In this document: one piece after another, positions 10,177 through 14,440 of the stretch
Layout of the letters: the number at the start of each line of letters is the position of its first letter
Numbering within the stretch: the first letter of the stretch is position 1
DNA from: Ornithinibacillus sp. 4-3
GTDB lineage: Bacteria > Bacillota > Bacilli > Bacillales > Amphibacillaceae
NCBI RefSeq assembly: GCF_040958695.1
Contig: NZ_CP162599.1
Location: forward strand, 2,080,001-2,144,000
Direction: 5' to 3'
Length of the DNA stretch: 64,000 nt
Notes under the pieces: generated by a model
Seen by the model: only the letters and a program-made list of their open reading frames with translations
Told to the model about the DNA's origin: nothing
Databases searched by the model: none
Position numbers and translations under genes: made by a program

Positions 10177-10209
10177 AAGGATAACATTTTAATAGGAGTG
10201 TCTTATTCT

Positions 10210-10356
10210 ATGGATTACTTATCTGATGAATTACTTTTAGAATCCTATCAAAAAGCATTAGAATTAAATTTAAATTCAGATTTCCTATCACTTATAGAGG
10301 AAGAAATTGATCGCAGAAATCTTACATCCCAGATTAAGTGTAGTCATCATGTCTAA
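10210..10356 (+). CDS. sda: Sda, sporulation checkpoint inhibitor of KinA
   Basis: Sda is a small helical-hairpin protein that binds the sporulation histidine kinase KinA and blocks its autophosphorylation, holding sporulation back when DNA replication is impaired. The 48-residue product begins [20 protein letters not shown] and continues [16 protein letters not shown]; the LSDELLxESYxKAxExNLxxDF pattern is that of B. subtilis Sda. AGGAGTG lies nine bases before the ATG. It follows DnaA boxes and lies next to yqeG, as in B. subtilis. A hairpin-like repeat at 10383-10417 may end its transcript. Confidence 0.93.
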
Positions 10357-10422: not shown

Positions 10423-10449
10423 ATACACAGTTACAAGAAATCATACATA
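10423..10449 (+). promoter_or_regulatory. Candidate sigma-E-type promoter of sigK
   Basis: ATA (10423-10425), a 16-base spacer and CATACATA (10442-10449) resemble the mother-cell sigma-E consensus (ATA, 16-18 bases, CATACANT). sigK is transcribed by sigma-E with SpoIIID in B. subtilis. No SpoIIID site was identified with confidence. Confidence 0.4.
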
Positions 10450-10499: not shown

Positions 10500-10949
10500 T
10501 TGTCTGGAATTCTTAGTGCACTTGCATTACTCATAAAAGAAACACTATTTTTCGTTTCCTACATTAAAAATCAAGCCTTTCCTCAGCCACTTTCTCCAGA
10601 ACAAGAAATCACTTATATTACGCAGATGAAAGAGGGCGATGAGGTCGCGCGAAATAAATTGATCGAACATAATTTACGACTAGTCGCACATATCGTAAAA
10701 AAATTTGATAACACTGGTGAAGAAACAGAGGATTTAATTTCCATTGGTACAATTGGGCTGATTAAAGGTGTAGAAAGTTTCAAATTAGGCAAAGGAACAA
10801 AATTAGCTACTTATGCAGCACGATGTATTGAAAATGAAAGTGTAATTACAAATAGGCAGTGCGGTTTATTAGAATATCCTCATAATAGACCATTAGTTAA
10901 AAAGTTAAAATACGAAGCCTATCTGCGTCAACCACTTGCACTTCCTTAA
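10500..10949 (+). CDS. sigK: Pro-sigma-K, N-terminal part (interrupted sigK)
   Basis: This is the first part of the late mother-cell sigma factor. The TTG start has AAGGAGGT before it. Residues 1-20 form the membrane-associated pro-sequence ending FFVS before [12 protein letters not shown]; Ser20/Tyr21 is the position of SpoIVFB cleavage in B. subtilis. The region 2.1-2.2 signature [12 protein letters not shown] and [17 protein letters not shown] follow. True sigma-K sequence ends at codon 113 (ENE, 10836-10838); the remaining 36 codons come from the inserted element and have no sigma-factor match. The reading frame stops inside the element and overlaps the 3' end of the recombinase gene by 53 bp on the other strand. 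After excision the frame continues at 14081. Confidence 0.95.
10835..10839. repeat. attL core of the sigK element
   Basis: TGAAA here is the only sequence shared, in register, with the right junction at 14077-14081. The outside flank is sigK codon sequence; the inside flank carries ATTACAAA at 10845-10852, the right arm of the reconstructed attP. Confidence 0.75.
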
Positions 10950-12390
10950 TTAAGACTCGTAATATTTCTTGTTTTTCTTTTGTTGTAAGGATTTTATTTT
11001 TTGTACGGAAATAACTATCTATTGCTTTTTTCAAGACACTTCTATTCGGGTTTCGTTCTTTTACTAACTGTTGTTCCTTCTCCTTTAATTGGATGCTTAA
11101 ATCTCTTTCCTCTACGTGTATTGCATGAATCTTTTCCTTTATCTCTTGTAAATCGATATCATCATCTTCTAATATCGTTAATAATTCCAGTAATCGTTTC
11201 CTACCACTTTCACAGTTTTTAATTTGTTTTTGGATTTCTTCGATTTCTAATAATACATATGATTTCGGCATCCATTCCCCCGTCTCTTGCACTTCCTTTA
11301 CTTTGCTAATCCATTCTTCTATCTCTAACCAAACATTTTCATTTAACTTCTTTTCACTGATCATCCTGCCACATCCAGTTGAGCTAAGAGCTGTGTTATT
11401 TTTACGACAATGGTATACATAATACTTTTTCCCATGCGAATTCGTTTTCCTGCCGGTCATCTTTCCGCCACAGCGAGCGCAACGAACTAAACCAGATAAT
11501 AAATAATCATGATAACTATATCCAGCATATCTTCTTCTAATCACTTTTAACCGTTCTTGCGCATCATTAAATTGATCCTTGGAAATAATTGCTGGAATCG
11601 TTATTTGAATCCATTCCTTTCGTGGCCGCAATCTACCTGATGCATATTTTTCCCCTGCTTGCTTCTTCACATAATTCCCTTCCGTATCATATCTATTTTG
11701 ATAATAGACTCCTGTATAAGCTTCATTCATTAAAATTTGCCGAACAACCTGGCGATGCCATACTTTCGCTCCACGGGCTGTCTGTATTCCTGTTTTCGTC
11801 AAATGCAGCGCAATCCCTTTCACCCCTTGAAACGAATATGCGGGATTCGTAAAATAATCAAAAATCATTTGTACAATGTTTGCCTCACGTTTATTAATCA
11901 CATATGTTTTCTGTTCTGTACAATAATCATAACCATAAAGTCCGCTATCTTTTACTACATAACCTTGTTTTGCCTTTCGATATTTTCCTGTCATTGTATT
12001 ATGTTTAATTTTTGCTTTGTCAAATTCAGAAAATGCACCACGGACCTGAAAATAAAGTTGCCCTTCTGCATCATTTTTATATTCACTTTTTACAAAATTT
12101 AATTGCACCTGAAATTTTGTTAGCTTTTCCGTAATTAGTAATTGATTTAATAATTTTCTAGATAATCGATCTGGATCATAACAGATAATTTGACGGATAA
12201 ATCCAGCTTCCACATCTGCTAATAATTTAGATAAACTAGGTCGATTAAGTATTTCCCCTGTATACCCATCGTCCACATACAGTTTTGCATTTCTTGTACC
12301 AGCAAAAGCCAAGCAATCTTCAATCTGCCCCTCGATGCTGTATCCCTTCAATTGCTCTTCCGTCGACACTCTCGCATAAATCGCAATCAT
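10897..12390 (-). CDS. spoIVCA: SpoIVCA-type large serine recombinase
   Basis: This recombinase would excise the element in the mother cell to restore sigK. The 497-residue protein begins [20 protein letters not shown] with the catalytic Ser9 in YARVS and has the resolvase core [12 protein letters not shown] and [10 protein letters not shown] (domain about 1-150), a recombinase DNA-binding domain (about 160-265, including [15 protein letters not shown], near identical to B. subtilis SpoIVCA), a zinc ribbon (CARCG and later Cys residues, about 305-350) and a coiled coil (about 365-440). The ATG at 12388-12390 is chosen because GAGGAG precedes it; the longer frame has a 34-residue extension foreign to the family. 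B. subtilis SpoIVCA is 500 residues. Confidence 0.95.
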
Positions 12391-12599
12391 GCTCCAACTC
12401 CTCTTCACACATGTCTTTCTGATATAGAGTGAGTAAATACTGATAACAATATTGTAAGCTTCGGTTAAAATAAGGACCTTTATCAAATTCAATCTTCAAG
12501 CCTCATCCCTCCTATCACTCATACTTATGCAAACGCCACTTGTCCCTATGTTGGGGTTTTATTATGATGAAAAAATTCCACGCCTTAGACTTATTTCTA

Positions 12600-12643
12600 T
12601 TGCTAAAATTTCTTTATTTGCATAAAATAAGAACAAATGTTCC
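12600..12643 (+). promoter_or_regulatory. Promoter with overlapping LexA (SOS) box
   Basis: TTGCTA (12600-12605), a 17-base spacer and TAAAAT (12623-12628) form a sigma-A-type promoter. AGAACAAATGTTCC at 12630-12643 matches the Bacillus LexA/DinR box CGAACRNRYGTTYC at all but the first base and covers the expected transcription start. LexA binding there would repress the gene that follows. Confidence 0.65.
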
Positions 12644-12660
12644 CTAAGGAGTGAGAATTT

Positions 12661-13026
12661 GTGGATAATCAAGCTATAGCAGTACGGTTTTTATTTTTAG
12701 GTTTAGCGATTAAAAATTTAGAGCTAGATATAGAGCATGTAAAAAAAGCTCCCTTTAAAATTAAAGAACCTTATTTGACAGGACTTGAAAGAGCACATGC
12801 TAAAGCAACAGAAGAGATAAAGCACTTGAAAAAAATCATGTATAATAAACAAATAAAGATTATGGCAACTACACGAAATAAAAATTTTTCACACTATATC
12901 TTCCACAACGGTAATCAGAAAGAAGAATTAAGTTACTATAACTACATGATTCGTAAAAATGTGAAGGAAATTATGGAGGAACTAATTTATCATACTCCCA
13001 CGAAGGAATATTCCGAGCGGTTATAA
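12661..13026 (+). CDS. Hypothetical element-encoded protein, probably SOS-controlled
   Basis: The product has 121 residues, starting at GTG with AAGGAGTG eight bases upstream (MDNQAIAVRFLFLGLAIKNL). It is basic and predicted mostly helical, with many Lys, no signal peptide and no membrane segment. I recognise no domain; it has the look of small phage-encoded proteins. It lies directly behind a promoter whose start is covered by an SOS box, the only such site seen in the window. Its role could be linked to element maintenance after DNA damage, but nothing in the sequence proves it. Confidence 0.7.
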   Translation: MDNQAIAVRFLFLGLAIKNLELDIEHVKKAPFKIKEPYLTGLERAHAKATEEIKHLKKIMYNKQIKIMATTRNKNFSHYIFHNGNQKEELSYYNYMIRKNVKEIMEELIYHTPTKEYSERL

Positions 13027-13037
13027 GGAGTTTTTTT

Positions 13038-13142
13038 ATGGAACGAAAAAGAGTATATATAGTAGCTGGACCAGCTGGAGTTGGTAAGTCAACCACCGCG
13101 AAACAAGTGAAAAAACATCAATCATCTCCCAAGAATCCTTAA
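13038..13142 (+). pseudogene. Truncated P-loop NTPase/kinase fragment
   Basis: This is a 34-codon open frame, MERKRVYIVAGPAGVGKSTT followed by AKQVKKHQ and a stop. It contains a complete Walker A loop (GPAGVGKST) and the first beta strand and helix of a P-loop fold but no more. AAGGAG lies 7 bases before the ATG and 12 bp separate it from the preceding gene. It looks like the 5' remnant of a nucleotide-kinase-like gene; the B. subtilis skin element also has a putative nucleotide kinase (YqaC), which could be the full-length relative. Confidence 0.7.
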
Positions 13143-13174
13143 AGAAATTATTTATCAGCCCAAATATAAATTTT

Positions 13175-13220
13175 AACCTATAAGAAGAAATTCTGATCTC
13201 TTTTTCTTCTTATAGGTTTT
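13175..13220 (+). terminator. Terminator after the P-loop fragment
   Basis: A 16-bp inverted repeat (AACCTATAAGAAGAAA at 13175-13190 and its complement ending 13218) is followed by TTTT. It closes the two-gene transcript begun at the SOS-box promoter. Confidence 0.75.
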
Positions 13221-13370
13221 TTCTCGTTTTGATAAGTTACTTATAGGAACCTATGTAAAAAGAAGTTCTTTTTAGTGACCTCAGACCACTCCAATCTTCT
13301 CGTTTCCCTGGTGTAGTTCCTCTAAGAAACATGTATAATAGATAAATAAGAAGAGTTAGGAGTGAGATAA

Positions 13371-13730
13371 ATGGAGCATTTCTCTAGAATTTTAAGGTCC
13401 TATCGGGAAGAATTGAAAAAAGAAGATAGTAAATGGACACAAAGATATGTAGCAGAAAAAATTGGAGTTGCTCGAGTAACTTACACCGCTTATGAGAATG
13501 GCACAAAAACTCCTCCGCTTGATGTTGTTCTACAAATCGCTTCTGTCTTTAATGTTTCTGTTGACTATTTGATCGGAAGAACTCGTTATACAGAGCTACT
13601 GGAAAATATCATTGCTGCCTTTAACAATGACCCTACCTTAGAAAAGTGGTATCTAGATTTGCCTTATAACGATATAAATAGCCTAAGAAAATTAAAACGC
13701 ATTTATGATATTCTTCAGGAAGAGGAGTAA
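13371..13730 (+). CDS. Xre-family transcriptional regulator of the sigK element
   Basis: The product has 119 residues. The N-terminal half (about 8-68) is a Cro/CI-type helix-turn-helix: YVAEKIGVARVTYTAYENGT followed by PPLDVVLQIASVFNVSVDYLIGRTR. The C-terminal part is helical and of unknown function. GGAGTG precedes the ATG and TATAAT lies at 13334-13339. Similar small Xre regulators occur in the B. subtilis skin and ICEBs1, where they control element genes. Here it could repress the recombinase or the SOS-box gene; which one is unknown. Confidence 0.9.
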   Translation: MEHFSRILRSYREELKKEDSKWTQRYVAEKIGVARVTYTAYENGTKTPPLDVVLQIASVFNVSVDYLIGRTRYTELLENIIAAFNNDPTLEKWYLDLPYNDINSLRKLKRIYDILQEEE

Positions 13731-13792
13731 ACAAGAGTTCTTAAATAATCCCTTTTTTATACAAATCATCTAAATATCCTAGTTTACATAAT

Positions 13793-13831
13793 AAAAAGAA
13801 TGTCAACTAAATATTTGTTGACATTCTTTTT
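13793..13831 (+). terminator. Terminator after the element Xre gene
   Basis: A perfect 15-bp inverted repeat (AAAAAGAATGTCAAC and complement) with a 9-base loop ends in TTTTT. The rest of 13832-14050, up to the right att site, holds no gene that I can support. Confidence 0.75.
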
Positions 13832-14050
13832 ATAGAAAATCATTTTGATTTGAAGGTTTAAAACTCCTCCTTCATCGGATGAAGCTACCGACACATTGAC
13901 TTTATTCTTCACGGAGAAAGGTGTTTATGTATTAGTGTTTACATTGTTCTGTATATTTTCTAAGTTTTGAGGAGTTTCTTGAAATCCAAAAGCAGATAAT
14001 ACTGATCTAAATACTCGTCCTTCTTCCTATCTAAAAAAAGTCCCTCTCCT

Positions 14051-14440
14051 TTGCAATATCCTTTTGTAATAAATATTGAAATATTAATGCACTTGCGGTC
14101 ATTGAAAAAAGTAAGCAAAGACATCTCCTTACATGATCCTATTGGTCAAGATAAAGAAGGAAATGAAATAAGCCTTATCGATATTCTTGAAGCTGATACT
14201 GATAATATGATTGAATATATTCAAATGAATATGGAAATTGAAAAAATGCAGCAATACATTAATGTATTAGATGATCGTGAAAGAGAAGTGATTGTCTTTC
14301 GTTATGGCTTGAATGGTCTAAATGAAATGACACAACGGGAGATTGCTGATCGTTTGAGTATTTCCAGAAGCTATGTATCTCGAATTGAAAAACGAGCTTT
14401 GATGAAAATGTTTAGAGAATATTATCGTAATGAAACTTAA
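14051..14440 (+). CDS. sigK: Sigma-K, C-terminal part (interrupted sigK)
   Basis: This is the second part of sigma-K. Real sigma-factor sequence begins at [10 protein letters not shown] (14081); the nine codons before it belong to the element. It contains [20 protein letters not shown] (regions 2.4 to 3), and region 4 with [16 protein letters not shown] and the helix-turn-helix [20 protein letters not shown]. The true gene has no start codon of its own, so this part is translated only after excision. Together with the upstream part it makes 232 residues, close to 241 in B. subtilis. A strong terminator follows at 14457. Confidence 0.93.
14077..14081. repeat. attR core of the sigK element
   Basis: TGAAA here matches the left junction core. 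TTTGTAAT at 14063-14070, inside the element, is the left arm of the reconstructed attP; the outer flank is sigK sequence. Confidence 0.75.

Follow-up and report, generated by a model that had tools for sequence, protein, structure and literature searches.

The interrupted sigK gene and its insert

In the genome of Ornithinibacillus sp. 4-3, which consists of one 3.69-Mb contig, the sigma factor gene sigK is interrupted by a 3,242-bp insert carrying a serine recombinase gene of the SpoIVCA type. The analysis started from a 64,000-nt stretch of this genome (NZ_CP162599.1, positions 2,080,001 to 2,144,000), which is called the window here and whose own numbering is used throughout (Table 1). The genus is represented by one further genome (G018) in the GTDB family set, which also includes Virgibacillus proomii (G142) and Oceanobacillus indicireducens (G071).

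A shift comparison of the flanks placed the interruption after codon 113, with TGAAA at both breakpoints. A shift of 3,242 superimposes TGAAA at 10835-10839 on TGAAA at 14077-14081, and the fused flanks yield 232 in-frame codons followed by a stop. This arrangement had been proposed in a preliminary description made from the sequence alone; it was reproduced here, and the SigK model TIGR02846 matches both halves. The matched parts of both halves are free of stops, and the N-terminal half is 82-86% identical to its nearest intact homologues. A crossover register of 3,248 bp, with the 8-base TATTGAAA, is also in frame. The 3,242-bp register is preferred because the longer one loses the residues NE, which are kept in relatives, and sets the arms of the joined attachment site (attP) 22 rather than 16 bases apart by manual count, off their GA centre. 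No second sigK was seen in the genome at the limits used, since the N-terminal half (E<=1e-38) and the C-terminal half (E<=1e-30) each returned a single match. The promoter-like sequence ahead of sigK is labeled sigma-E-like by comparison with the consensus. The gene for the sporulation inhibitor Sda lies directly 5' of sigK (10198-10356), and homologues are also found upstream of sigK in G071 and G008.

Table 1. Features of the interrupted sigK locus (window coordinates; ORF, open reading frame; aa, amino acids)
Feature	Position	Strand	Details
Putative sigma-E-like promoter of sigK	10423..10449	+	ATA, 16 nt, CATACATA; found by eye
sigK 5' half, codons 1-113	10500..10838	+	TTG start, pro-sequence present; Sigma70_r2; TIGR02846 183 bits, model 3-118
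attL	10835..10852	+	Core TGAAA 10835-10839; inner arm ATTACAAA 10845-10852
SpoIVCA-type large serine recombinase, 497 aa	10897..12390	-	Resolvase, Recombinase and zinc-ribbon domains (Pfam)
skr-like ORF, 59 aa, candidate recombination directionality factor	12320..12499	-	TTG start at 12499 after AGGAGGG
Putative SpoIIID-like site and sigma-E-like -10, upstream of skr	12522..12549	-	GGACAAGT; CATAAGTA
Sigma-A-like promoter upstream of ORF121	12600..12628	+	TTGCTA-17-TAAAAT
LexA-like palindrome between skr and ORF121	12631..12642	.	GAACAAATGTTC; sole match in the 64-kb window, 0.60 expected by chance
ORF121, 121-aa orphan	12661..13026	+	One cluster (98% identical) in the protein database; weak match to phrog_34234
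34-aa P-loop ORF	13038..13142	+	Ends shortly after Walker A; weak matches, all below cut-offs
XRE-type phage-repressor-like regulator, 119 aa	13371..13730	+	HTH_3; phrog_8
attR	14063..14081	+	Inner arm TTTGTAAT 14063-14070; core TGAAA 14077-14081
sigK 3' half, codons 114-232 and stop	14081..14440	+	Sigma70_r4; TIGR02846 177 bits, model 109-227

Attachment sites and recombinase

The inner ends of the element together form an attP of the structure TTTGTAAT-N16-ATTACAAA, centered on the GA within the core. The perfect 8-bp arms and the 16-base centre holding the core, both noticed earlier, were borne out by a computed inverted repeat around this GA, with 14 of 20 outer positions pairing. GA was the best computed inverted-repeat centre in the attP of nine out of ten related elements. 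For the tenth (G328), the script picked another centre, and by eye TGACATT and AATGTCA flank GA there too.

The recombinase is 48% identical to B. subtilis SpoIVCA over its full length (100% coverage). It retains an intact YARVSTEEQ motif, in which Ser9 does not vary among the six recombinases aligned, that of the window included. Together with the domains in Table 1, these observations agree with the initial statement that the element holds a SpoIVCA-type recombinase with an intact catalytic serine. The features that define a SpoIVCA-type skin element were looked at one by one. At this locus, sigK is divided into two in-frame halves with the short core at each break, inverted repeats surround the core in the att sites, a large serine recombinase of this type lies within the element and, as described below, a candidate directionality factor gene overlaps the recombinase gene in the position and frame seen in B. 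subtilis. Elsewhere in the genome, the PF07508 serine recombinase family gives eight matches (L001-L008), five of which form two clusters, one around 3.06 Mb and one around 3.12 Mb.

The sigK loci of related genomes were compared, as the preliminary description had suggested. The recombinase was found at E 1e-60 or better in 6 of 159 genomes of the GTDB family, and exactly those six have a short frame for the sigK N-terminal half (130-157 aa), the 144 others having frames of 234-314 aa. This comparison covers 150 family genomes, 153 having had an N-half match and three of these (G021, G036 and G111) no listed row. Frame length is an imperfect sign of an intact sigK: in G218, a genome of the order, the N-half frame reaches 272 aa and the halves lie 13.1 kb apart. 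We count the coincidence of recombinase and short frame in the same six family genomes as more than chance, and the recurrence of the GA centre in the attP sites as well.

A small reading frame overlapping the recombinase gene

The 5' end of the recombinase gene shares 71 nt, in another frame, with a 59-aa ORF that the preliminary description overlooked and that likely encodes the excision factor. In B. subtilis, the 64-aa Skr is needed for skin excision, and its gene overlaps spoIVCA by 101 nt (PMC6957869). All 26 loci examined in the family and order surveys have an ORF in the same relative frame that spans the start of the recombinase gene. A profile built from the N-terminal parts of these 26 ORFs matched 27 of 27 class-level loci outside the building set; these came from 44 new genomes, 17 of which returned no locus. 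The same profile matched 28 of the 30 closest loci on viral contigs and none of 50 more distant ones, the 80 being the best 80 of 353 relatives and the 30/50 division having been drawn after earlier profile results were seen. The two misses are L087 and L079, the latter on a stretch that begins 12 nt before the recombinase. Matches of a full-length profile at distant viral recombinases (e.g., L098 and L113) were rejected: its C-terminal part overlies the conserved recombinase start, and the matches disappear with the N-terminal-only profile.

The non-overlapping part of the ORF also shows a third-position bias. Third codon positions hold 23 of its 41 differences (p 0.002; four disjoint genome pairs), and the 90 nt upstream, used as a control, have 57, 57 and 52 differences per codon position. 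The recurrence of the overlap suggests that the coupling of factor and enzyme is a rule of the clade and not an oddity of B. subtilis, and annotation seems to overlook the overlapping ORF. ORF121 had been the first candidate for the directionality factor and was dropped once the overlapping ORF had turned up; in a tblastn search at E 1e-3, none of the five remaining family elements gave an ORF121 match.

Candidate control sequences

In the 60 nt preceding skr, 20 of the 26 loci have the pattern ACA-N10-12-CATA, against a mean of 0.37 and a maximum of 3 in mononucleotide shuffles, a contrast that gives no probability because the loci are related. By comparison with the consensus sequences, we take it to be a SpoIIID-like site before a sigma-E-like -10. 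The genes for SpoIIID and CotE are present in the window's genome. In B. subtilis, spoIVCA depends on sigma-E and SpoIIID (PMC517825, PMC5025042).

The LexA-like palindrome between skr and ORF121 raises the alternative of a reversible, damage-triggered switch, in which the SOS response would also excise the element in growing cells and sporulation would be one trigger among others. In 8 of the 26 loci, the 600 nt preceding skr contain such a box (shuffle mean 0.15, maximum 2), and sprB of SPbeta carries both a stress promoter and a sigma-E/K promoter (PMC6957869). The string CGAACRNRYGTTYC is present in PMC2248561. However, the window's box sits 18 nt before ORF121 and may therefore control ORF121 alone, 0.60 matches are expected per 64 kb, the distances in the eight loci spread between 94 and 597 nt, and the eight include two pairs of near relatives. 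We consider a damage-triggered switch quite unlikely. The evidence on control as a whole, promoter pattern included, is suggestive. The sigma-A-like promoter upstream of ORF121 is weak evidence, because 14 such matches were found and 17.5 were expected in shuffles.

A probable developmental switch reduced to 3.2 kb

Taken together, the locus is very probably a SpoIVCA-type skin element, reduced to 3,242 bp, that interrupts sigK and is excised in the mother cell through Skr and the recombinase. In the mother cell, sigma-E and SpoIIID would switch on a single transcript of the overlapping skr and recombinase genes, and Skr would turn the serine recombinase away from integration and towards excision. 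The enzyme would then pair attL with attR, exchange strands at the GA inside TGAAA and release the element as a circle. The pro-sigma-K frame would be rejoined in the terminal mother cell only, and the spore would therefore retain the element.

Several points weigh against this reading, in addition to the relatedness of the loci that share the promoter pattern. The relation of the 59-aa ORF to B. subtilis Skr is drawn from position and length. The window's protein has no relative besides itself in the protein database searched, and with a net charge of -7 it is the most acidic of the 26. The promoter pattern is altered or absent in 6 of the 26 loci, with variants in G320 and G528 and none in G533, G275, G400 and G218 (longer Skr). 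Among the class loci, a looser pattern test run without a control was positive in 18 of 27 and found nothing in 9. The pairing of 14 out of 20 attP positions, with its lower right-arm symmetry, falls short of the 18 of 20 in G071 and G008. Finally, expression, Skr activity, excision and its timing are deduced from sequence.

Some of these points would also fit a dead remnant, an element that no longer leaves, so that sigK is permanently broken and sporulation is not completed. The truncated ORF within the element and the partial attP symmetry agree with such decay. Nevertheless, the sigK halves show neither a stop nor a loss of frame, and their conservation equals that of intact homologues. 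The recombinase keeps its full length and its invariant motifs, and SpoIIID and CotE are present. Loss can moreover look different, as in G790 (C1:2004535-2026493), where an intact sigK is accompanied by a recombinase with a stop and a stray sigK C-terminal half at a distance of about 21 kb, which may be what a lost element left behind. We regard a dead remnant as highly improbable.

Other genes of the element and its ancestry

Candidates for phage-derived genes beyond the recombinase are the XRE repressor, whose best phage match is a regulator of Caldibacillus phage CBP1 (66% over 57%), and ORF121 as a distant relative of another element's gene. ORF121 is 23% identical to a 116-aa ORF of the 36.6-kb sigK element of G071 (single-comparison E 6e-6 in a direct comparison). 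Both weakly match phrog_34234, and the G071 ORF adjoins tail genes. No phage match was found for ORF121 itself, and no structural phage genes were found among the element ORFs scanned. The 34-aa P-loop ORF is probably the stub of a deleted gene.

These gaps could mean that the element is a small non-phage cassette of recombination genes and passengers that was never a large prophage. Precedents for this exist in gin, which interrupts gerE (PMC5595907), and in a 22-kb sigK island (PMC10745906). Against it stand the phage relatives of the XRE repressor, the resemblance of ORF121 to an ORF beside tail genes, and the recombinase clade, which holds the infectious phage MMB025 (42% identity over 80%) and many viral contigs. 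Such a cassette origin seems unlikely to us. Given the relationships of ORF121 and XRE, and with MMB025 belonging to the recombinase clade, the element more likely than not descends from a larger prophage, although this is unproved. The preliminary description's phrase of a prophage reduced almost to its switch agrees with what was found: the element keeps phage-like remnants (the XRE repressor, the truncated P-loop ORF and an orphan weakly related to a G071-element gene), and a larger ancestor is likely.

Comparison with known systems

The element belongs to a known kind, of which it is an extreme miniature. What is new is how far it has been reduced, together with the factor ORF that overlaps the recombinase gene across the clade and the promoter pattern that recurs ahead of it. 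The B. subtilis skin occupies the same gene and shares a short core repeat, a recombinase with the identity given above and a small ORF overlapping the recombinase start (PMC6957869). However, it measures about 48 kb (PMC10745906) against 3.24 kb for the window's element, which has no structural phage genes and carries other passengers. In Clostridioides difficile, sigK is likewise restored by a serine recombinase (CD1231) and a small factor (CD1234), the latter under sigma-E and SpoIIID (PMC5025042). That element differs in size (14.6 kb), in its position in sigK and in its opposite orientation (PMC10745906). It also has a constitutive recombinase and a factor gene that is not described as overlapping it.

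Closer at hand, a 2,051-bp element in G328, of the same order, has the same att-skr-recombinase-att layout at the same sigK codon; it is smaller, its recombinase is co-oriented with sigK, and XRE and ORF121 are missing. At this locus (L051), a 70-aa ORF, skr and the recombinase lie between the att sites. Alicyclobacillus phage MMB025 is also integrated in sigK, whereas it is a 105-kb infectious phage with a reported core of TCTC, unlike the window's TGAAA (PMC13141910). In gin of Bacillus cereus, a sporulation gene is likewise restored by a serine recombinase and a factor (GirC and GirX), but the element spans 28.6 kb, lies in gerE rather than sigK, has three recombinases and is non-phage (PMC5595907).

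Size survey of sigK elements

An element was counted as measured when both sigK halves lay on one contig and strand with a recombinase between them and the C-half match began at the first residue. The genomes sampled, 397 from the order and 398 from the class, represent one species each. In all, 34 measured elements range from 2.05 to 105 kb, and the window's is the second smallest. Five of the six family elements were measured, at 3.24 (the window), 7.8, 9.2, 13.4 and 36.6 kb, G142 being left out for its opposite-strand halves. In the order, 15 of 20 were measured (2.05 to 58.2 kb), leaving out G528 (opposite strands), G211, G267 and G424 (different contigs) and G275 (sigK intact). A value of 2,872 for G459 proved to be an artefact of two separate loci in one record, the true span being 58.2 kb. 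In the class, 14 of 44 were measured (3.49 to 105 kb); the largest, G818, is the least certain, its C-half being only 54% identical. Four class elements of about 9 to 20 kb (G607, G641, G671 and G806) were set aside because their C-half match begins at residue 19-27, and 26 class genomes were left out because the halves were on different contigs, no match reached the limit or sigK was intact.

The elements below 4 kb are those of G328 (2.05 kb), the window (3.24 kb) and G716 (3.49 kb), and G328 excludes the window's element as the smallest. The earlier wording, one of the smallest working versions, therefore stands as to size, while its working state is something we infer, and with better reason now because the Skr-like ORF was found and the mother-cell-type promoter pattern recurs. 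No miniature skin element was found in the literature searched, from which most subscription papers were absent. A 2013 survey reportedly covered elements of B. weihenstephanensis. The published sizes found all exceed that of the window's element, with about 48 kb, 14.6 kb and 22 kb for elements in sigK (PMC10745906) and 11 kb for a degenerate kamA insertion (PMC6957869), besides those of gin and MMB025 given above.

The window element shows how little DNA a developmental switch may need. With three measured elements below 4 kb, it becomes simpler to address by experiment the old question of why sigK stays interrupted in spore formers, and the miniature size allows the whole element to be removed, or rebuilt as a reporter in a laboratory strain, in one step.

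Relatives with unusual sigK arrangements

More tentatively, sigK elements of the SpoIVCA clade may repeatedly shrink until a bare switch of att, skr, recombinase and att is left, retained by the host like a DNA intron that removes itself, and in two relatives with opposite-strand halves and intact recombinase genes they may restore sigK by inversion; we hold this to be possible rather than probable. In V. proomii (G142; L028, L060), about 9.3 kb separate the two halves, which are on opposite strands and have att cores that match. Gene order relative to the intact relative G141 suggests that the C-half was flipped, which may be an assembly error; if the two sites recombined, the resulting inversion would restore sigK. 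The halves in G528 (L053, L063, L064) are also on opposite strands, about 11 kb apart, and by a manual reading of the ORFs the interval holds, next to the recombinase, a gene cluster for sugar-acid catabolism and a TRAP transporter. In G275 (L054), sigK is intact with a 256-aa frame, and a skr-recombinase element closely resembling the one in sigK of G400 lies elsewhere in the genome.

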